Positions 2,668 through 26,271 of a stretch of 48,518 nucleotides of DNA are shown here, one piece after another. A program made the position numbers and the translations under genes. This DNA is from Candidatus Acetothermia bacterium (GTDB lineage: Bacteria > Bipolaricaulota > Bipolaricaulia > Bipolaricaulales > Bipolaricaulaceae), in NCBI GenBank assembly GCA_003562845.1, contig PWTL01000050.1, forward strand, positions 1-48,518, in the 5' to 3' direction. Under the pieces are notes generated by a model. It worked only from the letters and a program-made list of their open reading frames with translations, did no database searches and was not told where the DNA came from. The first letter of the stretch is position 1; each line of letters starts with the position of its first letter.

Positions 2668-3405
2668 ATGAGACTTCGCGCACTGGTCACCGGTGGTTCA
2701 CGGGGCATCGGAGCAGCCACAGCCGTTCGCCTTGCCCGCAGGGGCTATGACGTGGCACTCAGCTTTCGCAGCAGCCGCCAGGACGCCGAGGAGACAGCGG
2801 CAGAAGTAGAAAGAATCGGTTGCCGGAGCGTTGTTCTGCAGGCGGACTTGGCCGACGCTCAGCAGGCGCGGGAACTGGTCAGGAGCGCCGCCGAAGCCCT
2901 GGGCGGCCTTAACGCGCTGGTGAACAACGCCGGGTACGTGCAACGCACTCCCTGGGAAGAGGTGTCCCTAGAGGACTGGAACATGATGATCCAAGTTGCC
3001 CTGACCTCGCCGTTTTTGTGCGCCCAAGTTGCCGTGCCCTACATGAAGGAAGCGGGGTTCGGGCGCATAGTGAACGTATCCTCGCTTCGGGCGCTTACTG
3101 GCTCCGCCCACGGCGTGCACTACTCGGCCGCCAAAGCCGGGCTGTTAGGAGTGACTCGCTCCCTCTCTCTTGCACTTGCCTCTCATGGGATCACCGTGAA
3201 CACAGTGTGCCCAGGATACACCGCCACTGACATAAACCGAGAGGTCCTGGAGCAGCAGCCGGAGAAGATCGCTCGGCAGGTCCCGTTGGGACGTGCCGGC
3301 GAACCGGATGAGATCGCCGCGCTGATCGCGTTCCTCTGCTCGGAAGAGGCCGGCTATATTACCGGGGAAACGGTCAGCGTCAACGGCGGCCTGCACATGC
3401 GCTGA
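2668..3405 (+). CDS. Short-chain dehydrogenase/reductase, FabG-like
   Basis: A classical SDR of 245 residues with a Rossmann fold: TGGSRGIG (8-15) binds NAD(P), NNAG is at 86-89, and the catalytic residues are Ser 138/139 (NVSS), Tyr 152 and Lys 156 (YSAAK). VCPGYTATD and the C-terminal GETVSVNGG are typical of FabG (3-oxoacyl-ACP reductase) and of sugar or alcohol dehydrogenases. AAGGAGG 5 bases before the ATG is a strong ribosome binding site. The next gene, a sugar isomerase-like protein, starts 1 base after the stop, so a role in carbohydrate metabolism is as plausible as fatty acid synthesis; no other fab genes are present. Confidence 0.85.
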   Translation: MRLRALVTGGSRGIGAATAVRLARRGYDVALSFRSSRQDAEETAAEVERIGCRSVVLQADLADAQQARELVRSAAEALGGLNALVNNAGYVQRTPWEEVSLEDWNMMIQVALTSPFLCAQVAVPYMKEAGFGRIVNVSSLRALTGSAHGVHYSAAKAGLLGVTRSLSLALASHGITVNTVCPGYTATDINREVLEQQPEKIARQVPLGRAGEPDEIAALIAFLCSEEAGYITGETVSVNGGLHMR

Positions 3406-3406
3406 C

Positions 3407-4219
3407 GTGCCCACTTTCCACCTCGGAATTACAGCGTTCCTTGGCCCCCTGCTTACCCCGGAGGAGTGGATAGAAACGGCAGTGGCGGCCGGTGCTGCCC
3501 TGCTGGAGATCCGCGCCGAACCCGGGTTTGCCCACCCCTTGACGCTGCCCCCCGCTCGCACGCGCCGGCTACGTCGCCTCCTCCGCGACGCGGGACTACA
3601 GGCCTCCCTGCACGCCCCACTACACGATCTCAATCCCGCAAGCGCCGTTCCCGCATTGGAGGCCGCTGCGTGGGCTGAGCTCTCTTCCTGCGTGGACCTC
3701 GCCGCCTCGCTGGAGGCCACTGTGTTGGTGGTGCATCCCGGCTCCGTCTCTCATGAATATCCGCCCCCCTACTGCGAAGCGGCCATTCGGCGGTTCAGCT
3801 TTGGGTTGCAGATCCTCGCGGCGCGCGCGGCAGCCAATGGAATACACCTAGCACTGGAGAACAAGCAGCGGGGCAAAGGAGAAGACCTTGTCCGCTCTCC
3901 CGAGGAACACCTCTATTTTCTGCGTCAGGTTCCCGAACTTGGCGCCTGTCTCGACCTAGGGCACATGCATACTCTGGGGTTAGACCCGGCAGAGTACGTA
4001 CAGGCACTGGGACAGCACCTCATTCACGTTCATCTGCACGACAACAATGGCCAGCAGGACGAACACCTACCCCTCGGAAAGGGAAACCTGAACTGGAAGA
4101 GGGCACTTGCCTCGCTGGACGAAGCGGGCTACGAGGGAGCGGTGGTGTTGGAGTTGCCCGAGGTCAGCGGCATCGAAGAAAGCCTGGCCTCAATCCGTGG
4201 CCTGGGGAGGACTTTGTGA
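3407..4219 (+). CDS. Sugar phosphate isomerase/epimerase, TIM barrel
   Basis: A 270-residue protein of the xylose isomerase-like TIM barrel superfamily (AP endonuclease 2 Pfam family). Barrel-strand signatures carry the metal ligands: SLHAPLHD, VVHPGS, LALEN, CLDLGHMHT and HVHLHDNNGQQDEH, ending with VVLELPE. Substrate cannot be inferred; members act on sugars, inositols or hydroxypyruvate, and endonuclease IV shares the fold. GTG start 1 base after the SDR stop. The last bases overlap the start of the MFS transporter gene, so these three probably form one operon for uptake and processing of a small polar compound. Confidence 0.8.
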   Translation: MPTFHLGITAFLGPLLTPEEWIETAVAAGAALLEIRAEPGFAHPLTLPPARTRRLRRLLRDAGLQASLHAPLHDLNPASAVPALEAAAWAELSSCVDLAASLEATVLVVHPGSVSHEYPPPYCEAAIRRFSFGLQILAARAAANGIHLALENKQRGKGEDLVRSPEEHLYFLRQVPELGACLDLGHMHTLGLDPAEYVQALGQHLIHVHLHDNNGQQDEHLPLGKGNLNWKRALASLDEAGYEGAVVLELPEVSGIEESLASIRGLGRTL

Positions 4220-19917: not shown

Positions 19918-19972
19918 CCTTCCGGGCAAGACAGCCGGCATAGCGGTTAGCCTGACCATGAGGAGGGCTACC

Positions 19973-20890
19973 GTGAAGAAAAACCTGACAATGCTGGCGG
20001 TACTGGCGGCTGTGGCGTTGCTGCCCGCGGGCACCATGGGGGAGGAGTTCAGATTTGGAGGGTCGTTGGGGTTGGAGTTCACCTTCACCCCCGTCCCCCC
20101 TGCCGACCTGGACATCTCCAGCGACATCACCCTTTCCCTGAGCTTCGGCAACGCCCAGGTGATAAGTCGGACACGTTTGACCCTGGACGGGTTTCATCAG
20201 GCGTGGCTCGGGTTTGGGTTGGACCTAAGCGTCTTGCACCTGGAAACCGCTATGCGCTTTGACCCATGTTTCTCTATGTACCGGCTCGAGGTGCGAGGGG
20301 AGTGGTGTCCCGCTGAGTTCGGGGGCCTCCTCCTTCTGGAGAACTTGGCCCCCATATGCGAGCCTCCCGACTACACTGTGGGGGTCGTCCTCGACCTGGG
20401 GCTGCAGCTAACCTCCGGGTTCTGGCTGCGCAGCCTCACGGGTTTCGGAGTATGGGATCTGTACTACCTCGTCGACGAGCTCGCCCGCACCGACATCTCC
20501 GCCGCCCCCGGGTGGTGGTTCGAGGAACAGCTGCTGGGAATGGGCCTGCAGGCAGAGTGCTTCTCCGTGGACAGCTGGATTCTGTTCACCGATCTCGGGT
20601 TGATCTGGGCCCGTCTGAGCAGTTCGTACAGCTGGTCCCAACCGGACGTAGCAGTAGGAGCCAGTTTGTGGTGGTCGGGGGGCTGGATGTTCGACACGGC
20701 GGAGCTGTTCGTCTCCGGGACGATCCACCCGGTGACCCTGCGCTCGGTGACCGTGTTCGATTTGAGCGGCTTTGTCATGCAGGAGATTGACGTCGAGGTA
20801 ACGTTCTCCGGCATAACTATCTACTCGCAGACAGTATTCGACTTCCTTGGGCTCATTCAACAGGTGGCAGGAATCGAACTGCGGTTCTAG
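19973..20890 (+). CDS. Secreted beta-rich protein, possible outer membrane barrel
   Basis: A 305-residue protein with a signal peptide (MKKNLTMLAVLAAVALL, cleavage near AGTMG-EE). The mature part is all-beta in appearance: alternating hydrophobic strands, many Gly, Phe and Trp, few Lys, and a terminal Phe, as in outer membrane barrels. GTG at 19973 is preferred over ATG at 19958 because GAGGAGG lies 6 bases before it and the signal peptide then begins MKKN. No family recognised. The sigma-like gene begins 3 bases after the stop, so the two are co-transcribed. Confidence 0.68.
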   Translation: MKKNLTMLAVLAAVALLPAGTMGEEFRFGGSLGLEFTFTPVPPADLDISSDITLSLSFGNAQVISRTRLTLDGFHQAWLGFGLDLSVLHLETAMRFDPCFSMYRLEVRGEWCPAEFGGLLLLENLAPICEPPDYTVGVVLDLGLQLTSGFWLRSLTGFGVWDLYYLVDELARTDISAAPGWWFEEQLLGMGLQAECFSVDSWILFTDLGLIWARLSSSYSWSQPDVAVGASLWWSGGWMFDTAELFVSGTIHPVTLRSVTVFDLSGFVMQEIDVEVTFSGITIYSQTVFDFLGLIQQVAGIELRF

Positions 20891-20893
20891 ATT

Positions 20894-21553
20894 GTGGCCG
20901 GGATGGATCACTTGCAGGAGCTGGCCGATCAGCTGCGGGGTTTCCCTTCCGCCGAGCTGCGGCAACGGCTGACCGAAGCTGCACTGCCCCTGGTCGAGGA
21001 GGTGGTCGACGAGTTCGCCGCCAGCGGCAGGCCCCGGGAGGCTTTGCTCCGTGCAGGGCACCTCGGACTGCTGAACGCCGTCAGCAATCTGAACCTGGAC
21101 AGGCGGGGGGACTTCGCCGCGTTCGCCCGCGACCTGATACGCGGTGAAATACGCGCCTCCGTTCGTGAGGAGTTCGCCGCTCCGCAGCCCCCTGCCTGGC
21201 TGGAGACGCTGGGCGAACACCTCGACATCGCCCATCGCCAGCTGGCCGGCGAGCTCGGTCGCCCTCCCTCATTGCCCGAGCTGGCGGACCGCCTGAACCT
21301 GAGCGAAGAGGGCTTGCGGGAGGCGTTCAAGGCGCGGGCCACGTTTCGCTACACTTCGCTCGGCCAACGCCGGCGCTCCACAGATCCCCAGCCTCACTTC
21401 CGCCCCGAGGAGGTGCAGGAGGCGACCCCCACCGGTATCCCCTGGCCGGCGCGGGCCCGGTTGGCGCAGGCCCTACGCCGCCTGCAGAGCTTGGCCGAAA
21501 GGTTACTAGAGCAGCTATTCCACGGCGGAGGCAGCGGGGGGGACGGTGAGTAG
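20894..21553 (+). CDS. Sigma-70 family protein lacking region 4
   Basis: A 219-residue protein (or 216 from ATG 20903). Residues 30-95 match sigma region 2 of the SigB/SigF/FliA type (LLRAGHLGLLNAVSNLNLDRRG, then FARDLIRGEIRASVREE); 105-160 match region 3 (RQLAGELGRPPSLPELADRL, LSEEGLREA, FRYTSL). Region 4, needed to bind the -35 element, is missing: after LAQALRRLQSLAERLLEQLF the protein ends in a GGGSGGDGE tail. No frameshifted region 4 is seen downstream. It could be a partial sigma that needs a partner, an antagonist, or a decaying gene. It lies just upstream of the c-di-GMP-controlled locus. Confidence 0.7.
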   Translation: MAGMDHLQELADQLRGFPSAELRQRLTEAALPLVEEVVDEFAASGRPREALLRAGHLGLLNAVSNLNLDRRGDFAAFARDLIRGEIRASVREEFAAPQPPAWLETLGEHLDIAHRQLAGELGRPPSLPELADRLNLSEEGLREAFKARATFRYTSLGQRRRSTDPQPHFRPEEVQEATPTGIPWPARARLAQALRRLQSLAERLLEQLFHGGGSGGDGE

Positions 21554-21594
21554 TGTTTACCAGTGTATGCAATGGTATATGTACTGTATAACAC

Positions 21595-21623
21595 TTGACA
21601 CACTTGGTTACCCCCCGTATACT
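21595..21623 (+). promoter_or_regulatory. Strong sigma-A-type promoter for the riboswitch transcript
   Basis: A perfect TTGACA, 17 bases, then TATACT (5 of 6). Transcription should begin near 21630, a few bases before the riboswitch aptamer. The 40 bases upstream are unusually AT-rich and contain an AGTGTT/AACACT inverted pair that could be an operator. Confidence 0.85.
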
Positions 21624-21635
21624 AGTTGCTGTAGG

Positions 21636-21716
21636 GTGAACGAAAAGGCAAACCCGGGGCGACCTGGGGGCGCAAAGCTCAGGGCCTCCGCATCGAGGAG
21701 GTAGCCGGGCTGCCGA
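21636..21716 (+). ncRNA. c-di-GMP-I riboswitch (GEMM-I class)
   Basis: The aptamer matches the GEMM-I layout by eye. GGCAAACC is at 21647-21654, then a CGGG/CCTG stem capped by a GCGA tetraloop, then CGCAAAGC at 21671-21678, a CCTCC/GGAGG helix, and GGTAGCCGGG followed by CTGCCG. The tetraloop, the CGCAAAGC junction and the GGTAGC segment are the conserved parts of the Vibrio Vc2 type aptamer that binds cyclic di-GMP. It sits between a strong promoter and a terminator, so it most likely controls the next gene by premature termination. Confidence 0.9.
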
Positions 21717-21748
21717 AACACCTCCAAAACACTTAGGAGGTGTTTTTT
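21717..21748 (+). terminator. Intrinsic terminator of the riboswitch, containing the ribosome site
   Basis: AACACCTCC and GGAGGTGTT form a perfect 9-base stem with a 10-base loop and a run of six T. The 3' arm includes the Shine-Dalgarno AGGAGG of the next ATG (21750), so the hairpin would block both transcription and translation. The 5' arm ACCTCC can instead pair with GGAGGT at 21697-21702 inside the aptamer helix; this gives a simple antiterminator. Ligand binding would keep the aptamer helix and free the terminator (off switch), by inference. Confidence 0.88.
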
Positions 21749-21749
21749 G

Positions 21750-22244
21750 ATGAGGAAGTGGATGGTAGTAGGGACAATACTGGCGATGGGGCTCGTGTTC
21801 GCCGTGAGCGGCGGCGCGGACAGCGCGACCGGAACGACGGACGTCACGTGGAGCGCGCAGACGTTCATCCAACTGAACATCGACGACCAAGACGTTGACC
21901 TGGGCGAGATCAGCGGGGATCTGTACGACCCAGGCGCAGACTCCTGGAACAACTTGGAGAGCACGGGCCACAGCGGGTGGGTCCTGAGCAACAGCCCAGG
22001 CGGGTTCACCCTCACCGCCACCGCGGCCAACGCCAGCGGCTTTGAACAAGCTGACCTCAGCAGGTTCTCGATCACCGGCTGGACTGCAGGCTGGCACTCT
22101 CTCGAGGGCACAGTGACCCTGGGCAGCCGTACCGGACCGGGCCGAGAGAGCATCGAGGACATCGGCTATCGGTACGAGCCGAGCTTCGACGACGCGCCGG
22201 GCGAGTACCAGGTGGTCGTCACGTTCACCGCGACCACGCAGTAG
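21750..22244 (+). CDS. Small secreted beta-rich protein under c-di-GMP control
   Basis: 164 residues, signal peptide MRKWMVVGTILAMGLVFAVSG with cleavage near SGGADS-AT, and a mature part without Cys that alternates polar and hydrophobic residues (beta sandwich-like). It ends with GEYQVVVTFTATTQ, a closing strand reminiscent of pilin-like, spore coat U-like and WxL-like surface proteins; no close family recognised. ATG is chosen because AGGAGG lies 9 bases upstream; a TTG immediately before it is less likely. Being directly behind the c-di-GMP riboswitch, it is probably a surface or matrix subunit. Confidence 0.78.
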   Translation: MRKWMVVGTILAMGLVFAVSGGADSATGTTDVTWSAQTFIQLNIDDQDVDLGEISGDLYDPGADSWNNLESTGHSGWVLSNSPGGFTLTATAANASGFEQADLSRFSITGWTAGWHSLEGTVTLGSRTGPGRESIEDIGYRYEPSFDDAPGEYQVVVTFTATTQ

Positions 22245-22267
22245 TCGGAGAGAAGGATTGCCCTGGC

Positions 22268-22300
22268 GGGCGGCCGGCGCGTCTACGTGTTCGGCCGCCC
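22268..22300 (+). terminator. GC-rich hairpin after the small secreted protein gene
   Basis: GGGCGGCC and GGCCGCCC form an 8-base stem with a 17-base loop. There is no T-run, so termination may be partial, letting some readthrough into the following genes. Confidence 0.45.
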
Positions 22301-22303
22301 AGG

Positions 22304-22309
22304 TATAAT
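22304..22309 (+). promoter_or_regulatory. -10 element just before the chaperone-like gene
   Basis: A perfect TATAAT 9 bases before the ATG at 22319; no good -35 match was found. If used, the message has a leader of only 2-3 bases. This would allow expression independent of the riboswitch. Confidence 0.45.
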
Positions 22310-22318
22310 TAGGATGCC

Positions 22319-23347
22319 ATGAGACGAGCAAGCCTTACAGCAGCCCTGCTGGTCGCCGCGCTGGCCACAAGCGGAGTCGCGCTGCAGATAACACAGCTGG
22401 AGTTTCAGTTCACCCTCAGGCCGGGGGAGGAGCGCCAGTTCTCCTTCCAGGTGCGAAACGACGGGCAGAGTACCCAGCGGATCAGCACGGAACTCGGCGA
22501 TTGGGAGAGAACACCCACGGGGGAGCACCGCTTCCTGGAGCCGGGTACTCTCCCCCGATCGTTGACCGAGTGGCTCGAGGTGTACCCGCGCTCGTTCACC
22601 TTAGGGCCGGACGAAGTACAAGAAGTTTCCGGCACCTTGCGCATCCCCTCTTCCGACCACCACCCAGTCGGGGGTTCCCACTGGGGGATCATCTTTGTCC
22701 AAGGCGAACCACGCCTCCAGGAGCACGAGGGAACAATGGTCCTGGCCGTGGAGAGGTTCGGGGTGAAGGTGCTCGTGGACCTCCCCCCCAGGGAGCGCGC
22801 CGCTACCATCGGTGCACTGAACGCTAAGGGCCTGAACCCCCTGTGGGTGGAGATCGAGGTGTCAAACACGGGAAACACAAACCTCCCCTCCATCGAAGGC
22901 CAGGTCACGGTGTACGACGAGACCGGCGAAGAGCTGGGACGCTACGACTTCGCCCGCTTCCCCTGTCTCCCCGGCGCAGAGCGCAGGGTCCGGGTGGACA
23001 CTGGTCTTCGGCTCACCGAGCCCGGAGACTACAACGTCCTTGTCACGGTGGACGCGGGAGTGGACCACCTCATCGCCACACAGCGCATGGTGCGAATCCG
23101 GCGGTTGGCGTTGCAGCCCTTGCAAGACGACTGGGGCGTCCCCCAGGACCTGTCGGGGGACGGGCTATACGAGGACGTGCTGGGAGATGGCTCGTTTCAC
23201 CAAGGGGACGTAGACGCCCTGGCCGAGCACCTGTACCGTCCCGCGGTGCAGCGCAATTGGCGGGCGTTCGACTTCGCCAACGATGGCCAAGTGGGAGAGC
23301 TGGACGTCTCCGCTCTGCAGGCGATGCTCGACGCCCAAGGCGGGTGA
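22319..23347 (+). CDS. Secreted chaperone-like Ig-fold protein with dockerin-like C-terminus
   Basis: 342 residues. Signal peptide 1-21 (RASLTAALLVAALATSGVA). Residues about 25-150 resemble the first domain of DUF916/PapD-like periplasmic chaperones: TLRPGEERQFSFQVRNDG, then WLEVYPRSFTLGPDEVQEV and SGTLRIPSSDHHPVGGSHWG. A second Ig-like domain (about 160-260) has VSNTGNTNLPSIEG. The last 70 residues contain two calcium-loop repeats, DLSGDGLYEDVLGDG and FDFANDGQVGELDVSAL, like a type I dockerin pair. I infer that it escorts or anchors the upstream small secreted protein. Confidence 0.72.
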   Translation: MRRASLTAALLVAALATSGVALQITQLEFQFTLRPGEERQFSFQVRNDGQSTQRISTELGDWERTPTGEHRFLEPGTLPRSLTEWLEVYPRSFTLGPDEVQEVSGTLRIPSSDHHPVGGSHWGIIFVQGEPRLQEHEGTMVLAVERFGVKVLVDLPPRERAATIGALNAKGLNPLWVEIEVSNTGNTNLPSIEGQVTVYDETGEELGRYDFARFPCLPGAERRVRVDTGLRLTEPGDYNVLVTVDAGVDHLIATQRMVRIRRLALQPLQDDWGVPQDLSGDGLYEDVLGDGSFHQGDVDALAEHLYRPAVQRNWRAFDFANDGQVGELDVSALQAMLDAQGG

Positions 23348-23421
23348 CCCGCGCACCGACGTCCATCTCCTGAGGTAAACCGGTCCTGCCGACCGCGGCC
23401 ACGCCGAGATAGCCTGTGCGT

Positions 23422-26271
23422 ATGCGCGCGCTTGTCTCCTTGCTCGTCTGCATTGGGTTCGGGCTTGCTGCCCAGGCGCTCACTGTGCGGGTCACCTCGC
23501 CGCCCCGCACGGTGGAACCTGGAGACGTGGCGCTGCACGTGTTCCGTCTGGAGAATCCTCAGGACAGCACCCTGGGAGTCGATCTGTCAGTAGAGCTCCC
23601 GCAAGGGTGGAGCGTGCTGCCCATCGCCCCGCAGCTCACGTTGGACCCCGAAGACGCGGCCACGGTGTTCGTCACCGTGCAGGTTCCCCCGGCGGCCGGA
23701 GCAGGGGAGCATGACATCCTGCTGGCCGCACGTTGGAACAGCCGGGAGGCCACGGCCACCGCACGGGTAACCGTGCGTCAGGTGGCACAAGTCGCCATCG
23801 ACGTCCCCGCAGAGAAGAGCATCTCTCCCGGGGGATCGGTCTCCTACACCTTCACGGTGAGTAACCGCGGGAACGCAGTGGATCGGTACACCGTCAGTGC
23901 GGACTCGGCAAGGAGATACACACTGCGCGTCGACCCGCGAGAGTTGTCTCTGGCCCCTATGGAACGAGGGACAGTCACTGTGGAGGCAGACATTCCCCTC
24001 ACAGCTGACGCCGGGCGGGATAGGCTGCTGCTCATTGTCCGTTCCACTGCCGCTCCGGCCGTGGAGCGAGAGGTCGCCTTGTTCACCACGATCCTCCCGC
24101 CTGGCCCGGAGCTGATAGTAGGGCACACCCTCGCCGAGGTGGACACACAGCTCGGTGGCCGGTTGGAGTTTGACCTCCTGAACGATCAGCGGCAGTCCTC
24201 ACTGTTCTTCTCTGGGCGCACCTCTCTCCTCGACGGCGTGCTCTCCTTCTCGGTGCGGGCGAGCGGGCCCTGGGGAGCTCCTCCCCTGGACGTGGATAGA
24301 GTGAGCCTGGCGTACACACACGACCAGGCACGCGTCCGCGCCGGAGAGTTCACTGTGCCCTTGGCTCCTCTCTCCGGGCTCAGTGGGTCGGGCGTCGCTG
24401 TGGAGTTCCTGCAAGGGAGAGCGTCCCTGTCCTTGGCCAGCGGGTGGCACGAGGGAGAGGGGCGGTTCGGGGGGACGGTCACCGTCCGCGGCAACGCGTG
24501 GGAACTGGGCACCGTGTACAGGGAAACCAGGGGAGAGGACGAACACCGCCGAGCGTTGGCCGGCCGGGTCACCCACTTCCTCGGGGAACACGTAGAGTTC
24601 GAGCTGGCAGCCAGTCTGGCCCTGGAGCCCCCCATCCTAGAGGAGGGCCTCCGGGCGGCGCTGCGCGTAGAAGTCGAGAGAGTAGCTTTCCTGGGCCTCT
24701 CCTGGCACTCTGTGGGGGGCGCCGTCCCCAGCCCGCTGGCCGGAGAGGAGGGAGTCAGCGTGTCCGGCCGTCTAGCATCCGCCCCCCTCGGCTTTCGCTT
24801 CGCCTGCCGCTGGGTCCGGGACAACCCGCAGCAGCACACAACTGAGGGGAACGCCTCCCGGGTTGAGCTCTCCTCGGCCACGGACTGGGCCCCGGAAGAA
24901 TGGCCGCTGGCCTTCTTCGGAAGCTTCTCTGGGCGAAGGGAGTGGGACGGAGAGGGCACCGCACTGGAGAGGGTTCGGGAAGCCCACCTGGCAGTGAGCG
25001 GCAATGCGGAGCCACTGGCCTTCCACCTGTCGGGAACCTTGCGCACAGACGAGGAGTTGCCCAACGGCCACATCGTGTTCCGCACGGCATACGAGCAACG
25101 GTTTACCCTGTCCGGAGAGTTCGTGCAGGGCACTCTGTCCCTCAGGCAGCAGGCCGCGTTTGACCCTCCGGGAGATCCTCTGGAGCGTGGCTGGGAAGTG
25201 GGCCTGTCTGCCCGCCTGGTGGACATGCCCTACCGCCTGACCCTGAGCTGGACTCACGACAGCCCGGACGTGGAGGCAGAGCTGGACTTGCAGGGGCCGC
25301 TCACCGACAGCTTCAGTGCAGGGCTCACCGCGGCAGCCCACTGGAACGATCAAGGGGAAGTTGCATCCCTCCGCTTGGGGCTCGCCTTCGAGCATGTCTT
25401 CTCCTGGACACCGCCCTTTCTCCCCGCCCGGGGCTGGTTGGAGGGAAGTGTGTTGGCTGACGGTCGCGGCGTGGAAGGGGCCGTGCTGGCCACCGCCGGC
25501 CACAGAGTTGCCACCGATGCGGAGGGCCGTTTTCTGTTCCCTCCGTTGGCCCCCGGGGAGTACTCTGTCGCCATTGATCGGCTGCCCTTCGGGGTACGCG
25601 CATTGGAACCCGAGCCCGTGGAAGCAGAGGTCGAACTCGACAAGCGAACGCACATCGTCATCCACTGCGAGCTGCTGGCCGAAGTGCGGGGGCTCGTGTT
25701 CGACGACCGCGGCCAACAGGGCGAGCGCCATCCGGACGATCCGGGATTGGGCGGAATCACCGTGACGTTACTGGAGAAGTCAGAACCGGCGGAACGCACG
25801 ACCACCAACAGCGCAGGCCGCTTCTCCTTCTCCCACCTGTCCCCCGGGAACTACACCCTACGACTGGAAACAGACAGCCTGCCCCTGCGCTATGAGGCCA
25901 CCACTCCCACCCAGCGCGAGGTCAAACTGGAGCAGGGTGCTGTGGCCGAGGTCGAGTTTGGCGCCTGGCAACGACCACGGGAAGTGGTGGTCGCCCCGGC
26001 GCCTCCCCTGGCGGACTTCGCCTGGGAGCCCCCCGTCCCCCAGGCCGGGGACAGCGTCACCTTCGACGGTCGCCTCTCTGCCCCGGGCGATTCTGACATC
26101 CTCGCCTACAGGTGGGATTTCACCGACGATGGGGAGATCGACGCTACGGGGAGAGAAGCGATCTGGACCTTCTCCGAACCTGGAGTGTACTGGGTGACGC
26201 TGACCGTGGAGGACGAACTGGGTCTGCAGGACGAGCTAACCCTCCCCCTGGAAGTACTGCCCGCGGAGTGA
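23422..26271 (+). CDS. Large secreted multi-domain protein: NEW3-like, beta-rich core, CnaB-like, PKD
   Basis: 949 residues from ATG 23422 (a GTG two codons earlier is possible). Signal peptide RALVSLLVCIGFGLAAQA. Two NEW3-like Ig domains (about 20-215; VEPGDVALHVFRLEN and SPGGSVSYTFTVSNRGN). Residues about 215-690 are a long run of alternating beta strands, suggestive of an outer membrane barrel or usher. Two carboxypeptidase-regulatory/CnaB-like domains follow (LADGRGVEGAVLATAGHRVATD; GGITVTLLEK with TNSAGRFSFSHLSPGNYTL). A PKD domain ends the protein (FDGRLS, YRWDFTDDGEI, YWVTLTVEDE). Usher-like assembly platform or surface scaffold is inferred from order and context; there is no direct homology to FimD that I can see. 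Confidence 0.7.
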   Translation: MRALVSLLVCIGFGLAAQALTVRVTSPPRTVEPGDVALHVFRLENPQDSTLGVDLSVELPQGWSVLPIAPQLTLDPEDAATVFVTVQVPPAAGAGEHDILLAARWNSREATATARVTVRQVAQVAIDVPAEKSISPGGSVSYTFTVSNRGNAVDRYTVSADSARRYTLRVDPRELSLAPMERGTVTVEADIPLTADAGRDRLLLIVRSTAAPAVEREVALFTTILPPGPELIVGHTLAEVDTQLGGRLEFDLLNDQRQSSLFFSGRTSLLDGVLSFSVRASGPWGAPPLDVDRVSLAYTHDQARVRAGEFTVPLAPLSGLSGSGVAVEFLQGRASLSLASGWHEGEGRFGGTVTVRGNAWELGTVYRETRGEDEHRRALAGRVTHFLGEHVEFELAASLALEPPILEEGLRAALRVEVERVAFLGLSWHSVGGAVPSPLAGEEGVSVSGRLASAPLGFRFACRWVRDNPQQHTTEGNASRVELSSATDWAPEEWPLAFFGSFSGRREWDGEGTALERVREAHLAVSGNAEPLAFHLSGTLRTDEELPNGHIVFRTAYEQRFTLSGEFVQGTLSLRQQAAFDPPGDPLERGWEVGLSARLVDMPYRLTLSWTHDSPDVEAELDLQGPLTDSFSAGLTAAAHWNDQGEVASLRLGLAFEHVFSWTPPFLPARGWLEGSVLADGRGVEGAVLATAGHRVATDAEGRFLFPPLAPGEYSVAIDRLPFGVRALEPEPVEAEVELDKRTHIVIHCELLAEVRGLVFDDRGQQGERHPDDPGLGGITVTLLEKSEPAERTTTNSAGRFSFSHLSPGNYTLRLETDSLPLRYEATTPTQREVKLEQGAVAEVEFGAWQRPREVVVAPAPPLADFAWEPPVPQAGDSVTFDGRLSAPGDSDILAYRWDFTDDGEIDATGREAIWTFSEPGVYWVTLTVEDELGLQDELTLPLEVLPAE

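Follow-up and report, generated by a model that had tools for sequence, protein, structure and literature searches.

The window analysed here, a 48,518-nucleotide stretch of DNA from Candidatus Bipolaricaulota (Acetothermia), carries a locus on contig C64 of a host assembly that is 1.45 Mb in size and 85 percent complete. All on the + strand, the core order is a promoter, an aptamer of the cyclic diguanosine monophosphate (c-di-GMP)-I type, and genes for a small secreted protein, a protein with two immunoglobulin-type (Ig) domains, and a protein of 951 amino acids (aa). A first-pass annotation had described these genes, with a secreted barrel-like protein and a partial sigma factor upstream, as a candidate c-di-GMP-controlled surface structure resembling a chaperone-usher locus. 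All the features that it listed are present on this strand, including the riboswitch and the partial sigma factor, which lacks region 4 and retains regions 2 and 3. The features are as follows:

19958..20890, + strand: secreted beta-rich protein of 310 aa, no family matches; accessory, beside the locus in some members of the phylum
20894..21553, + strand: sigma-like protein of 219 aa, limited to regions 2 and 3; accessory, beside the locus in some members of the phylum
21595..21623, + strand: sigma-70-type promoter TTGACA-17-TATACT (11/12 matches; ~0.2 such sites expected in shuffles)
21634..21638, + strand: putative 5' strand of helix P1, GGGUG, which would pair with CACCU at 21719-21723 in the ligand-bound state
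21637..21717, + strand: c-di-GMP-I riboswitch aptamer RF01051 (59.5 bits against a gathering cut-off of 35)
21717..21744, + strand: expression platform hairpin AACACCTCC / GGAGGTGTT, then a T run; covers the Shine-Dalgarno (SD) sequence and shares CACCU with P1
21750..22244, + strand: small secreted subunit of 164 aa, ATG at 21750, predicted to be pilin-like (AlphaFold2, Foldseek, family alignment)
22319..23347, + strand: chaperone-like protein of 342 aa (homology to WxL-interacting protein, WxLIP)
about 22376-23104 (Ig part), + strand: signal peptide, then two Ig-type domains of the chaperone-like protein (homology)
about 23144-23329, + strand: dockerin-like C-terminus of the chaperone-like protein (profile match)
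23416..26271, + strand: usher-like protein of 951 aa (AlphaFold2 and Foldseek)
23482..24093, + strand: two N-terminal Ig/NEW3 domains of the usher-like protein (family match and model)
24139..25407, + strand: predicted 26-strand beta-barrel, residues 242-664, without a plug insertion (model, DSSP)
25432..26259, + strand: two C-terminal CnaB-type domains and a PKD domain of the usher-like protein (family match and model)

The locus itself is real, beyond chance. The 342-aa protein has relatives at 35 named loci, which with few exceptions belong to Candidatus Bipolaricaulota or Acetothermia; L107 and L080, labelled Neomarinimicrobiota and Thermotoga sp. in their records, closely resemble loci of Bipolaricaulota, and these labels probably reflect errors of binning or naming. 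A match of some kind to the 951-aa protein occurs in all 60 of the nearest genomes (many of the weaker ones to PKD only), and 56 contain the chaperone-like profile. In particular, for 53 of 71 chaperone-like genes, distributed over 45 of these genomes, an usher-like gene follows downstream on the same strand at a distance of at most 2.5 kb, with a median gap of 314 bases; of the others, at least one is close to the end of a contig and at least one, the copy on host contig C31, was missed by the plain sequence search. This contig holds a second, paralogous trio in the same order: the small protein has 185 aa, the chaperone-like one 265 aa (profile E 6e-29), and the usher-like one 805 aa (1.8e-83). 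The order of subunit, chaperone-like, and usher-like genes is kept across the phylum, and in the version found in genus g13 and G017 the riboswitch is followed by several secreted proteins and then by the chaperone-like and usher-like genes. The first-pass annotation had made its proposal depend on the co-occurrence of these genes elsewhere, which these counts and the second trio bear out.

The AlphaFold2 model of the 951-aa protein, built with 24 sequences (mean predicted local distance difference test score, pLDDT, 89.5; predicted template modelling score, pTM, 0.61), comprises two N-terminal Ig domains, 26 long antiparallel strands (residues 242-664), and C-terminal beta domains. A barrel, on which the earlier proposal also depended, is thus predicted, and family matches to NEW3/NPCBM_assoc, two CnaB-type domains, and PKD confirm the domain make-up read at first pass. 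When the model was compared with the PDB by Foldseek, FimD and PapC came out on top (9fw9_D at 1.1e-17, 3rfz, 9fy9, 7lhg, 6cd2, and 2vqi), and the next membrane barrel after the ushers was BtuB (E 1e-7), about ten orders of magnitude behind. An even number of strands puts both ends of the barrel on the periplasmic side, as in ushers. The protein is predicted to have an usher fold, by which a likeness of shape is meant and descent is not implied. Because an Omp85 outer-membrane assembly protein occurs in 29 of 30 relatives, the cell likely possesses an outer membrane able to take the barrel, and this is where we infer that the protein resides.

The small secreted protein points in the same direction. 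Its model (AlphaFold2 with 32 sequences, pLDDT 89.1, pTM 0.75), in which residues of about 20-38 form no strand, retrieves from the PDB a top 50 made up nearly entirely of chaperone-usher pilins, with CS20, PapA, FimA, FimG, FimF, CfaB, PapE, the PapG pilin domain, CsuA/B, and CsuE among those matched. Nearly all members of the small-subunit family share a C-terminal pattern, G-x-Y followed by alternating residues and Y/F-T, and the subunits of relatives carry SN..W-x-L and a C-terminal Y-T-L-T-A-P. In many relatives, a second gene encodes a separate N-terminal domain together with a C-terminal half of the same subunit domain; these two-domain variants, which stand in tandem with subunit genes, share their arrangement with both FimH-type tip adhesins and large WxL proteins. 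The models thus support the likeness to a chaperone-usher locus that was first read from gene order.

The 342-aa protein had been called a PapD/DUF916-like Ig chaperone. Its two Ig domains align over their full length with EfmWxLIP1 (9i25 and 9i1y, E 0.015-0.05), and WxLIP_PGBD (DUF916) matches 9 of 30 relatives (best 2e-5) and occurs in 8 of the 60 genomes, in 1 of them over the cut-off; the window copy itself matches neither PapD nor DUF916. From homology, the protein is expected to have two Ig domains and to be related to DUF916/WxLIP (DUF916/DUF3324) proteins more clearly than to PapD, so that the Ig and DUF916 parts of the call stand, the latter through relatives, and the PapD part does not. 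Past the signal peptide, the protein contains no hydrophobic window that would form a transmembrane helix. Within the family, K/R150 and Y238 are invariant and R222 is nearly so. Archaic chaperones anchor the carboxylate end of the subunit through residues of both domains, Arg in the first and Tyr and Arg in the second (PMC4654587); K/R150, R222, and Y238 recall this two-domain anchor and may be taken as a lead. WxLIP, for its part, is thought to stabilise WxL, into which a beta-hairpin strand is predicted to insert (PMC10599100), and this insertion would be close in logic to donor-strand complementation. No cohesin partner for the dockerin-like end was found in the host genome, and cohesin occurs in 4 of 20 relatives. 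A secreted protein that likewise has a dockerin-like end stands between the chaperone-like and usher-like genes in L076 (8046-9266), L099 (8023-9186), and L293 (12823-13983). Thermotoga maritima, used as a control genome, gave a DUF916 (WxLIP_PGBD) match over the cut-off, which is unexpected for a diderm.

The c-di-GMP-I riboswitch read at first pass before the small protein scores well over the cut-off, and an orthologous aptamer lies at 3330-3410 in relative L094. The platform hairpin covers the SD sequence GGAGGTG, seven bases 5' of the ATG at 21750, and its 5' arm contains CACCU, which can also pair with GGGUG as P1; in L094, which has the same platform design, this pairing is kept as AGGUG/CACCU. 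At 24 of 28 small-subunit sites tested, an SD-hiding hairpin of differing sequence starts within 12 bases after the aptamer, and at 22 of the 28 it is equalled in at most 5 of 100 shuffles. P1 and the SD hairpin are mutually exclusive, so ligand binding should turn expression on, and the sequence thus suggests an ON switch. At high levels of c-di-GMP, a biofilm signal, the bound aptamer would let P1 take the CACCU strand, which would free the SD sequence, break the terminator-like hairpin, and allow the subunit to be produced.

Aptamers of this class occur in 57 of the 60 relatives, and the small-subunit family is the largest class of genes behind them (63 of 163 sampled sites, in 36 genomes, a rough figure owing to contig-end sites, tandem sites counted separately, and automatic choice of start codons). 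Other genes behind the sampled aptamers encode a 107-aa protein (19), large secreted proteins (19), and S8 proteases (17). Moreover, of 167 riboswitch sites sampled, 50 have a chaperone-like gene downstream at no more than 5 kb, against about 0.3 expected. In the host genome, a search with the subunit profile detects three subunit genes and no more, and each stands behind its own c-di-GMP-I aptamer. A string of riboswitch, protease, riboswitch, 107-aa protein, riboswitch, and large secreted protein (L039, 67-1800) recurs in L233, L236, L244, L212, and L174; c-di-GMP therefore seems to control a wider surface programme. The 107-aa protein itself (L039, 167-487, - strand; 19 genomes) has a ribbon-helix-helix-like start, repeated LGEILV..G motifs, and its own c-di-GMP riboswitch. 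It matches no Pfam family above the cut-off, and the assignment of a c-di-GMP-binding MshEN domain to it was dropped for lack of Pfam support.

The reading that we favour, and regard as probable, is that of a diverged chaperone-usher-like system with a WxLIP-type chaperone, which builds an adhesive surface fibre on the diderm Bipolaricaulota cell and is switched on by c-di-GMP; the likeness to the machinery with which E. coli makes its adhesive hair-like fibres is one of predicted shape and does not extend to sequence. The first-pass annotation could recognise no close match to a known pilin, chaperone, or usher, and indeed none of the known usher, PapD, and WxL families is recognised by sequence in the window; for this reason, the locus is best described as seeming to function in the manner of a chaperone-usher system, and not as a proven member of that group. 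The subunit would cross to the periplasm via Sec, be held there by the two-Ig chaperone-like relative of WxLIP, and be passed to the 951-aa outer-membrane barrel for secretion and assembly, probably by exchange of N-terminal donor strands. The two other small subunits of the host, each with its own riboswitch, would feed the same or a paralogous machine, and the two-domain subunits of many relatives, with their extra N-terminal domain beside the pilin-like one, would be tip adhesins.

Several results weigh against this reading. With 26 strands, the predicted barrel departs from the 24 of ushers, and it lacks a plug, no insertion exceeding about 10 residues; the Foldseek TM-scores of the 951-aa protein are modest (0.25-0.5), and the pTM of its model leaves domain packing uncertain. 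None of the usher families PF00577, PapC_N, and PapC_C is among the matches listed for the 951-aa family, and PF00577 was found in none of the 60 relatives, with the E. coli positive control detected. PapD_N matches just 2 of 30 relatives of the chaperone-like protein (best 0.016) and not the window copy. Comparison by hhalign with E. coli K-12 proteins gave probabilities of 0.8 percent for ushers, 1.5 percent for chaperones, and 19 percent for pilins, the latter two in the right general register and too weak to count. Cysteine, which most pilins contain, is missing from the subunit, and the Foldseek scores of the subunit are modest as well (E 8e-4 and up, TM-scores 0.4-0.54), so the pilin argument rests on the specificity of the match list. 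As to the switch, the OFF fold is favoured by 10 kcal/mol over the ON-like fold when no ligand is present, and in the latter the SD sequence can still be masked by a weaker hairpin. Finally, the distant loci L098, L104, L105, L108, and L109 have a chaperone-like gene and no usher-like gene within the stretch read. In the clade of L105, L108, and L109, genes for a small subunit-like protein, an 817-832-aa protein, a sensor-like protein, and a protease-like protein come after the chaperone-like gene, with no barrel within that stretch.

The locus might instead be a diderm counterpart of Gram-positive WxL clusters, in which the WxLIP-like protein keeps WxL-like small proteins and two-domain adhesins on the surface, the barrel serves as an anchor or export pore, and no polymer is formed. 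The chaperone-like family does match WxLIP_PGBD and EfmWxLIP1 better than PapD, the small, two-domain, and chaperone-like sets parallel the small WxL, two-domain large WxL, and WxLIP proteins of such clusters (PMC10599100), and the W-x-L and Y-T-L-T-A-P motifs of relatives fit this picture. However, the WxL family (PF13731) gave no match below E 0.17 in the 60 genomes, whereas the L. lactis control was detected; moreover, the transmembrane helix is missing from the chaperone-like protein, the predicted subunit fold matches chaperone-usher pilins, and the usher-like barrel, which is the usual downstream partner here, is absent from WxL clusters. We consider this explanation unlikely.

More doubtful still is an explanation that takes the 951-aa protein for a large barrel of the ordinary porin or transporter kind, fitted with Ig domains, its usher match reflecting only a big barrel beside beta-sandwiches and the locus being a loose set of envelope genes. 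The match to BtuB, the low TM-scores, the missing plug, and the 26 strands would agree with this, but the distance of about ten orders of magnitude between ushers and all other barrels, the independent match of the adjoining small protein to pilins, and the conservation and duplication of the gene pair and its order make it improbable. That the small protein is a c-di-GMP-regulated matrix or S-layer-like protein, for whose export alone the chaperone/barrel pair serves, is very improbable: the regulon does include S8 proteases and large secreted proteins, but the predicted pilin-like fold, the tandem arrangement of subunits with two-domain variants, and the chaperone-like partner speak against it.

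The two genes upstream of the promoter, which the first-pass annotation had counted as part of the locus, were rejected as core parts; they are neighbours in part of the phylum, most relatives do not have them beside the locus, and they look accessory. The 219-aa sigma-like protein matches Sigma70_r3 (2e-6), region 2 weakly, and a SigBFG-like profile (3.5e-24); lacking region 4, it may depend on a partner to recognise the -35 element, or it may act as a regulator. It is about 216-222 aa long in most copies and adjoins the locus in L094, L106, L107, L054, and L098. The 310-aa protein has no Pfam match and is possibly an outer-membrane barrel. Proteins of this type are secreted, repeat-like, and beta-rich, and in most copies their gene lies directly before the sigma-like gene; a further one is found at L054 6546-7739.

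Should the favoured reading of a chaperone-usher-like fibre system hold, sequence models have overlooked a fibre machine that is conserved in the phylum. Its usher would work without a plug, WxLIP and PapD-type chaperones would be linked in a way open to testing, and adhesion would be under a clear regulon of c-di-GMP riboswitches. Archaic chaperone-usher systems have been reported from Proteobacteria, Cyanobacteria, and Deinococcus-Thermus (PMC4654587), and a closed Bipolaricaulota genome was reported to have no fimbriae, pili, or adhesins and an unclear envelope (PMC6092417). The literature searched yielded no description of such a riboswitch-controlled usher-like system, nor of a c-di-GMP riboswitch regulon centred on such pilin-like subunits. 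Tentatively, and with more doubt than belief, one may suppose that the WxLIP/WxL systems of Gram-positive and the chaperone-usher pili of Gram-negative bacteria share an ancestor and that the Bipolaricaulota system is an intermediate lineage, with a WxLIP-type chaperone, pilin-like subunits, a plugless 26-strand usher-like barrel, and scattered subunit genes individually switched on through c-di-GMP riboswitches.

With the chaperone-usher pathway (FimC/FimD, PapD/PapC, and the archaic Csu branch), the system shares a predicted usher-like barrel with Ig-type ends, a predicted pilin-like subunit fold, a putatively soluble two-Ig chaperone-like protein, the gene order, and, in relatives, two-domain subunits. 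It differs from this kind in chaperone type, barrel, and domain make-up: no family matches by sequence, the strands number 26 rather than 24, the plug is missing, NEW3 domains replace the usher N-terminal domain, a PKD domain is added, the WxLIP-type chaperone carries a dockerin, the subunit is cysteine-free, and control is by riboswitch. With WxL/WxLIP (DUF916-DUF3324) clusters, it has in common a chaperone-like protein related to EfmWxLIP1 over both domains, a set of small subunit, two-domain subunit, and WxLIP, and a W-x-L-like motif in relatives; however, a dockerin stands in place of the C-terminal transmembrane helix, the subunits are unmatched to the WxL family, and an outer-membrane-type barrel and a diderm host are involved. 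Like other c-di-GMP-I riboswitches (GEMM; RF01051, RF03167), those described here have an aptamer above the curated threshold and a platform that hides the SD sequence, and they occur in tandem and in multiple copies in control of surface genes; in contrast to these, the Bipolaricaulota regulon is centred on the pilin-like subunits of an usher-like system.

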